Shown here one piece after another: positions 32,508 through 34,266 of a stretch of 64,000 nucleotides of DNA. The notes under the pieces are model-generated. The model did no database searches and had not been told where the DNA came from. It worked only from the letters and a program-made list of their open reading frames with translations. Each line of letters starts with the position of its first letter. Position 1 is the stretch's first letter. A program made the position numbers and the translations under genes. Source of the stretch: Isosphaera pallida ATCC 43644 (GTDB lineage: Bacteria; Planctomycetota; Planctomycetia; Isosphaerales; Isosphaeraceae); assembly GCF_000186345.1 (NCBI RefSeq), contig NC_014962.1:2418001-2482000 (forward strand), given 5' to 3'.

Positions 32508-34019
32508 TCATTCCGCCAGGGCGACGCGAGAATCGCCCTCCCAGACCGGACAAATCGGGTTGGAGTCCCGACCTAAACGCCGTGCCAACTCGTCGAGAAA
32601 GGTAACCTGAGTGAGAGATTGAACATACTTGGGTTCAACCTGACGAACCCGTTCCAGAGCCTCCAACGCGCTGGCTCCTTGATAGATCAAATACGCCGCC
32701 AGCATCATTCCGGTGCGACCCAACCCGCCTCGGCAATGCAGGGCCACGACTTCGCCGGCGTCGAGGCGGTGTTTTAAGTCTTCGAGGAAGGTCAAGCCAT
32801 CTTCCAGACAGGGCGCTCCCATGTCGGGCATAGGCAGTGTCAGGCCACGGATGCCGTGCCGCGCCAGGTCGTTGGATGCGATGGGCGGGGTTTCGGCGGT
32901 CAAGCAGACCAGGGTGGTGATTCCCAATCCGGCCAGGCCGGCCAGGTCCTCCTCCAACTCCACCAACAGACCGGGTTTGGAGGTTCCGGCCAGACGTCCC
33001 GGATAGAGCCAGCGGAAGCCGCTGGGAGGACGGAGCGAGCCGGGGCGGCGGGCCTGCTCGCGGATCTCCCGGACTTCGCTGGGCAGCGCGGGGGGCGGGG
33101 GTTGGTTGGGATCGAGCATGTCGGGGTCGGCGTCGGCGGCGACCACCTGGCAACATCCGGTGCGGACATAGTCCGCGGCCTCAGGGCACGCGGGCGACTC
33201 GAAAAACTCTTCGGTCGGTTGATCAGCCAACACCCGACCGCCCCCGATCAGTAACACCCGCCCCCCCTGGGCCAACCGTCGTGCGTGGTCCAAGCGATGT
33301 GTCACCACCACCACGCAGCGCCGTTGTCCCTCAGCTCGGATGAAGTCAATGAGCGGATCGGCCTCCTGGTCCTCCAGACCGTCAGTGGGTTCGTCCAAGC
33401 AGACCACCGCGGGGTCAACTGGGGTGAGCCGGGCCAGGGCCAAACGACGTTGTTGACCCAGGCTCAATTCGACGACCTGATCCTCCAGACGCGCGGCCAG
33501 ATCGTCCTGTCCTAAGTGAAGCAAAAGGTCGCGGACTCGCTCGGCCGCCTCGCGGGGACTCAGGGCGTGGCGATCGGGAAACAGCATGGCGGCGTTGCGG
33601 GCCACGGTCGAGGCCAGTAACCGCAGCTTTTGCGCGACCAACATTGGCCGACTGGTTTCGCCCTGGTCCTCCGCCGTGTTGGACACGTCCAACAGCGCGT
33701 CGCGGTACCAGACCCGGCCCCAGGTCTTGAAGTTCACGATGGAGGCGTTGATGCCGCACAGGGTCCGCACCAGGGTGGACTTTCCCGAGGAACCTGGTCC
33801 CACCACTGCGATCACGCCACGATCAGGCCAGGACAAGGTGATGTCCACCAACGCCACCCGATCCCCGTAGGCGGCACCGAAGCGTTCCAAGCGTAACGAC
33901 GAACGTAATGACGAGCCTTCCATCAACAAGTCCGACGAACCATTCACCATCCCGGAGGGAACACCCCCACCGTTGGAACTCCTCAGCGGAGCGGGTCGAT
34001 TCCCGGCGACTTCCTCCAT
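32508..34019 (-). CDS. ABC-type ATPase fused to a dual-specificity protein phosphatase
   Basis: 503 residues from the ATG at 34019, chosen for GGAGG eight bases upstream. The first half is an ABC ATPase: Walker A GPGSSGKST (about 74-82), signature LSLGQQRRLALARL, Walker B VVCLDEPTDGLED and H-loop VVVTHRLDHARRLA. The second half is a cysteine phosphatase: WLYPGRLAGT, GITTLVCLTAE, a general-acid loop PMPDMGAP, and HCRGGLGRTG with Cys429 and Arg435. There is no frameshift between them. No membrane segments or permease are visible, so it is not an obvious transporter. It lies between two kinase genes on the same strand, suggesting control of phosphorylation; that role is inference. Confidence 0.88.
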   Translation of the reverse strand: MEEVAGNRPAPLRSSNGGGVPSGMVNGSSDLLMEGSSLRSSLRLERFGAAYGDRVALVDITLSWPDRGVIAVVGPGSSGKSTLVRTLCGINASIVNFKTWGRVWYRDALLDVSNTAEDQGETSRPMLVAQKLRLLASTVARNAAMLFPDRHALSPREAAERVRDLLLHLGQDDLAARLEDQVVELSLGQQRRLALARLTPVDPAVVCLDEPTDGLEDQEADPLIDFIRAEGQRRCVVVVTHRLDHARRLAQGGRVLLIGGGRVLADQPTEEFFESPACPEAADYVRTGCCQVVAADADPDMLDPNQPPPPALPSEVREIREQARRPGSLRPPSGFRWLYPGRLAGTSKPGLLVELEEDLAGLAGLGITTLVCLTAETPPIASNDLARHGIRGLTLPMPDMGAPCLEDGLTFLEDLKHRLDAGEVVALHCRGGLGRTGMMLAAYLIYQGASALEALERVRQVEPKYVQSLTQVTFLDELARRLGRDSNPICPVWEGDSRVALAE

Positions 34020-34266
34020 TCTCCGACCCTCCGGCCAACCCTGCAAGGATAAGGCGAACCCTTCGGAGTCGCTTGAACTCAAGGGAGCCGAGCCGGTTCT
34101 ATTGCCGCCTGGTGGCGACGCTCGGCGCGAGGGCCAAGCGGATTTCGGCCCCTGGCGCAAACTCATCCTGGACCAACAACGCTAGGTTCGCGCCACGACT
34201 CAACGCCACCCCTATTCGTCGCCGGAGTGGTCCGATTCAGAGGAACAAGTCCTCAATCCGCCAAGC

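Follow-up and report, generated by a model that had tools for sequence, protein, structure and literature searches.

What does an ABC-type ATPase do when it is joined in one chain to a Cys-phosphatase and no permease gene lies beside it? Such a protein is encoded in Isosphaera pallida ATCC 43644, within the 64,000-nucleotide stretch of its chromosome analysed here (the window). The first-pass annotation of this DNA saw in it either a signalling device, opposing kinases by ATP-gated dephosphorylation, or a mechanical one. We propose, with a probability of roughly 55%, that the fusion would be the soluble phosphatase arm of a cytoplasmic kinase/roadblock/phosphatase module, switched by nucleotide, and not a transporter.

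The uninterrupted frame of the first-pass annotation is real, running for 552 codons when counted from its first ATG (Table 1). Its end had been placed at 34019; this is indeed an in-frame ATG (M50), but the frame extends on to the first ATG at 34166. Judging from codon-position GC and from the short N-termini of relatives, the real start is probably M50, which has a good ribosome-binding sequence (GGAGGG) upstream, or a later ATG; nothing in the relatives corresponds to the N-terminal 50-80 residues, which may be untranslated. An assembly error confined to one genome does not explain the fusion. The two contigs are a finished chromosome and plasmid, since the published sizes of 5,472,964 and 56,340 bp (PMC3072084) sum to the 5,529,304 bp of the assembly, and independent relatives carry the same arrangement. 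Chance joining is excluded because both domains are kept in one chain across four genomes.

Table 1. Features of the fusion, its domains and its candidate partners (window coordinates unless stated; residues numbered from the first ATG)
Feature	Position	Strand	Basis or remark
ABC ATPase-phosphatase fusion	32508..34166	-	ORF, 552 aa from first ATG
ABC ATPase domain, residues 88-338	33153..33905	-	Pfam ABC_tran, TIGR00972, motif table
Walker A GPGSSGKST, residues 123-131	33774-33800	-	
Q-loop Q179		-	ABC motif
ABC signature LSLGQ, residues 234-238	33453-33467	-	
Walker B VVCLDE, residues 254-259	about 33390-33407	-	
H-loop H290, His codon	33297-33299	-	
DSP-type Cys-phosphatase domain, residues 382-531	32574..33023	-	Pfam PTP-SAK, Tc-R-P
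Acid loop PMPDMGAP, residues 445-452; general acid D448 codon	32823-32825	-	
HCRGGLGRTG, residues 477-486; nucleophile Cys478 codon	32733-32735	-	
Ser/Thr kinase Kin1, C-terminal TM helix	34267..35322	-	Pkinase 159 bits; TM segment; candidate partner
Ser/Thr kinase Kin2, 742 aa	29932..32160	-	Pkinase 154 bits; candidate partner
Roadblock-fold protein, 134 aa	chromosome 2485479-2485877 (G000:C2; L068:9480-9884)	+	I. pallida single copy, no Pfam match

The ABC half is a complete domain, with the Walker A, signature, Walker B and H-loop elements recognized at first pass all present; residues 108-261 score above the gathering cut-off of Pfam ABC_tran (64.5 bits vs 25). Its nearest curated family is PstB (TIGR00972), but at 116.4 bits against a cut-off of 343.2 it is not a PstB member, and in the tree it falls outside the PstB-like rows. 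Among the five members of the family described below, the residues of Walker A, Walker B (with the catalytic Glu), the Q-loop and the H-loop are invariant, whereas the signature, LSLGQ in I. pallida, is degraded in the other four (LEPAE, LSLCE, LPLGL and LPLGT). Because the core motifs are kept while the signature varies, nucleotide binding looks conserved, which may not hold for the composite hydrolysis site. Such a pattern is more what one expects of a nucleotide sensor than of a power-stroke pump, and the degraded signatures disfavour the mechanical device. Modelled by AlphaFold from its sequence alone, the 552-aa protein reached a pLDDT of 40, too low for use.

The lack of an adjacent permease was borne out. 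The fusion itself has no transmembrane segments, no multi-TM ORF occurs within about 7-10 kb on either side of it in I. pallida, and the surroundings of the fusion are free of multi-TM ORFs in four of the five genomes, the exception being a single 6-TM ORF about 4 kb away in G590 (genome designations are introduced below). We regard it as decidedly unlikely that the ABC half is a transporter ATPase, a PstB-like paralogue whose permease is encoded elsewhere and whose regulatory phosphatase tail tunes transport. That reading could draw on PstB being the nearest curated family, on the intact core motifs of the I. pallida protein and on another PstB-like ATPase about 46 kb away (L004), but the low PstB score, the separate position in the tree and the decayed signatures speak against it, as does the lack of a multi-TM partner near the fusion in four of the five genomes.

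The phosphatase half likewise has the signature and acid loop attributed to it at first pass, set in a complete DSP/PTP-SAK domain with the acid loop preceding the CX5R motif. Residues 382-504 exceed the gathering score of PTP-SAK (73.9 bits vs 27) and the half matches Tc-R-P at 61.6 bits, whereas with 27.5 bits against a gathering score of 33.5 it lies outside the classical DSPc family (PF00782). The solved structure nearest in sequence is PDB 25xa. The patterns HCxxGLGRTG and PxxDM, and with them the Cys, Arg and Asp, are invariant in all five members; the nucleophile, C478 in our numbering, is C429 when counted from M50.

Whether the fusion is conserved in planctomycetes, a question posed by the first-pass annotation, can be answered in the affirmative: three other genomes (G164, G590 and G648) have the full form, and a fifth (G151) has split adjacent genes, an ABC gene followed by a phosphatase gene with one stop between them. 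The G164 fusion (38% identity) and the G151 pair were found in the phylum sample with the phosphatase half as query, and a roadblock-only query led to G590 and G648, both of which then proved to have the full fusion beside the roadblock gene. A profile built from these five members, when applied to 397 Planctomycetia and 294 phylum genomes, scored the full fusions at 665-718 bits and the G151 split pair at 291 and 272 bits, with all else at 158 bits or less. The carriers come from several classes and different genera and their spread is patchy; I. pallida is the only one among 45 Isosphaeraceae genomes, the other 44 lacking the fusion, and one of six genus-g132 genomes has it. A scan of contigs from close relatives found only ordinary ABC ATPases, and a plasmid search only PstB-like ones.

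Each half forms one clade of the five (SH-aLRT 92 for the ABC half and 98 for the phosphatase half), in trees made by a quick method, with long branches and a composition-biased G151. Given these matching clades, the simplest reading of the trees is that the pairing probably arose once and was then subject to scattered transfer or loss. We give next to no credence to an accidental fusion or decaying gene with uncoupled functions; the degenerate ABC signature of four members might suggest it, but both sets of catalytic residues are kept across several classes, and a third protein, the roadblock partner, co-occurs strictly with the fusion.

This canonical roadblock protein is the most constant partner of the ABC-PTP fusion, and the co-occurrence is strict in the five-genome sample. 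It was first met beside the ABC/phosphatase genes of G151 and G164 (131 and 135-172 aa, depending on the start), and its gene adjoins that of the fusion in four genomes out of five. In the exception, I. pallida, a distance of 33.3 kb separates the two, and the roadblock gene lies 3.5 kb past the window end, outside the DNA that the first-pass annotation could see. Among 392 phylum genomes the protein occurs in I. pallida, G151 and G164 only. Of 397 Planctomycetia, just three have the canonical form, namely I. pallida, G590 and G648, and these are the same three that have the fusion; the chance of three coinciding with three in 397 genomes is 1/C(397,3), about 1e-7 with relatedness ignored. A more divergent form follows a kinase gene in G443 and G645, which are without the fusion.

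None of seven members of the roadblock family matched Pfam Robl_LC7 at E<=5. A structural model (two phage homologues; pLDDT 71) matched 3kye (Foldseek E 5.7e-5) and 3leq (VIA Z 11.3), followed by MglB, MP1-p14 and Ragulator subunits at Z 9-11, and on this modelling the partner protein is predicted to have the roadblock/LC7 fold. In G151 the roadblock domain is found C-terminally in two separate proteins, a Ser/Thr kinase (L086:8507-10174) and the phosphatase (L043:9127-10038); these fusions are the strongest link among kinase, roadblock domain and phosphatase.

Roadblock relatives were also seen in other surroundings. On two IMG/VR phage contigs they are 50-54% identical to the I. pallida protein (L127:7995-8402 and L128:7989-8399); in L128 about 100 bp separate the gene from the start of a portal-protein gene, and L127 also carries an EAL-domain protein of the c-di-GMP phosphodiesterase family (L127:9944-10750). 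Distant members of the group occur on Ruegeria plasmids (L070, L071) among four dynamin-family genes and the genes for a Ser/Thr kinase, an FHA protein and a PP2C phosphatase. In G164 (L042:4184-7878) the ABC-PTP/roadblock genes are followed by genes for a globin, an ABC1-type atypical kinase, a bacterial-globin protein and a CDGSH-like protein.

The third component would be a Ser/Thr kinase. In I. pallida two kinase genes flank the fusion on the same strand, Kin1 at 100 bp upstream of its first ATG and Kin2 at 347 bp downstream; a promoter scan upstream of Kin2 gave a weak sigma-70-like match (32338-32310), and Kin2 possibly has its own promoter. Both kinases are plausible candidate partners. 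I. pallida has about 58 kinase-like stretches, so that adjacency alone is weak evidence. The conserved kinase neighbours looked for from the first-pass annotation did not emerge, as those present are not orthologous across genomes. The gene order is kinase, roadblock, ABC-PTP in G648 and roadblock, kinase, ABC, PTP-roadblock in G151, and no Ser/Thr kinase directly adjoins the fusion in G164 and G590. Kin1 and Kin2 were considered as orthologues of the G648 module kinase, but this found no support; I. pallida kinases at 3.23 Mb match it better. A cluster at G000:C2:3223500-3243400 (L134) has genes for a phycobilisome-family protein, a heme oxygenase, a V4R-domain protein, a ferredoxin-like protein and two Ser/Thr kinases, one resembling Kin1; such a cluster is unusual in a non-photosynthetic, phototactic bacterium.

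The standalone phosphatase relatives have a Ser/Thr kinase within 600 bp on the same strand at 12 of 18 loci. Several close relatives are included in this tally, but kinase matches in I. pallida number only about one in 95 kb, so that adjacency by chance is expected to be rare. Together with the genomic company of the fusion itself, this supports well the kinase-opposing role suggested at first pass. It also bears on the substrate. The substrates of atypical DSPs are often non-protein, and the nearest Pfam families (PTP-SAK, Tc-R-P and PTP-NADK) take their names from conflict and NAD systems, so the phosphatase might act on a small molecule or nucleic acid (a phospholipid, an RNA 5' end, or NAD/ADP-ribose phosphates) while the ABC half senses the nucleotide pool. 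We consider this unlikely in view of the kinase pairing of the standalone relatives and of the G151 roadblock domain being fused to both kinase and phosphatase.

A further possible objection is that the module is a mobile defence or conflict system, in which a kinase-phosphatase pair controls an effector and the phage roadblock homologues are decoys. The patchy spread (one of 45 Isosphaeraceae, one of six genus-g132 genomes), the two phage contigs with roadblock proteins, one of them near a portal gene, and weak PADLOC matches to MADS ATPases could all be cited for it. We find this very improbable: the PADLOC matches reflect only the general resemblance among ABC ATPases or among kinases, the module's surroundings in the five genomes showed no effector, no nuclease and no known defence gene, and the phage copies may be regulatory cargo. 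MADS anti-phage defence as such was rejected, the mad3, mad8 and mad6 matches being generic domain similarity only, and the neighbourhoods showing neither a methylase nor a specificity gene.

The reading that we prefer, a nucleotide-switched phosphatase arm, would work as follows. The ABC domain would bind ATP as a homodimer, or as a dimer on the roadblock protein, and this binding would change where the C-terminal Cys-phosphatase domain sits or how it is paired. The phosphatase would then strip phosphate set by the Ser/Thr kinase on the roadblock protein, on the kinase itself or on a bound client, with the roadblock protein serving as substrate or scaffold. Domain content, catalytic residues, shared origin, co-occurrence and neighbourhoods are demonstrated at the level of sequence, support for the module coming from a small sample of five genomes; ATP as the switch, a phosphoprotein substrate, the direction of control and the role of the roadblock protein (substrate or scaffold) are what we infer from them, with ATP-gated dephosphorylation as probably the best mechanism. 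A bolder version, which we hold only tentatively and think rather doubtful, is that of a hitherto undescribed, horizontally mobile signalling device in which the ABC nucleotide switch controls a Cys-phosphatase that resets a kinase-phosphorylated roadblock scaffold, and phage copies of the scaffold interfere with it or exploit it.

Both halves of the fusion belong to known families, and the roadblock partner family is without a Pfam entry. A literature search for ABC-phosphatase fusions, PTP-SAK, and roadblock with kinase or dynamin returned nothing relevant, which is weak evidence of novelty because most subscription journals were outside its coverage. ABC ATPases that work without a permease serve in DNA repair, translation and Fe-S assembly; a covalent fusion to a protein phosphatase, if confirmed, would add a signalling output to these roles. 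The strict company of the roadblock protein offers a testable three-part circuit (kinase, scaffold and ABC-phosphatase) and a definable new family. Control of gliding polarity is a known task of roadblock proteins, MglB among them. As I. pallida both glides and is phototactic (PMC3072084), the role of the module might be sought in motility, by analogy and only as a lead.

Comparison with known systems places the fusion among several without its coinciding with any. With the ATPases of PstB and of amino-acid importers it has the fold and core motifs in common, TIGR00972 being the best curated match; unlike them, it scores below cut-off, forms a separate clade, carries a C-terminal phosphatase, has no evident permease and has relatives with a decayed signature. 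With the PTP-SAK and Tc-R-P phosphatases (PF22784 and PF22785; solved in PDB 25xa) it has in common the whole catalytic domain, HCxxGxGRTG and the PDM acid loop, but most planctomycete relatives are of about 150-200 aa and sit beside a Ser/Thr kinase, whereas here the domain is fused to an ABC ATPase. The partner protein shares its predicted fold with the roadblock/LC7 regulators (MglB, MglC and MP1-p14/Ragulator); unlike them it has no Pfam Robl_LC7 match and adjoins kinase/ABC-phosphatase genes rather than an MglA GTPase. Finally, in bacterial Ser/Thr kinase-phosphatase operons (a kinase with PP2C, often with FHA) the writer and eraser are encoded together, as here, but in this module a Cys-phosphatase joined to an ABC ATPase takes the eraser's place, and the roadblock protein replaces FHA.
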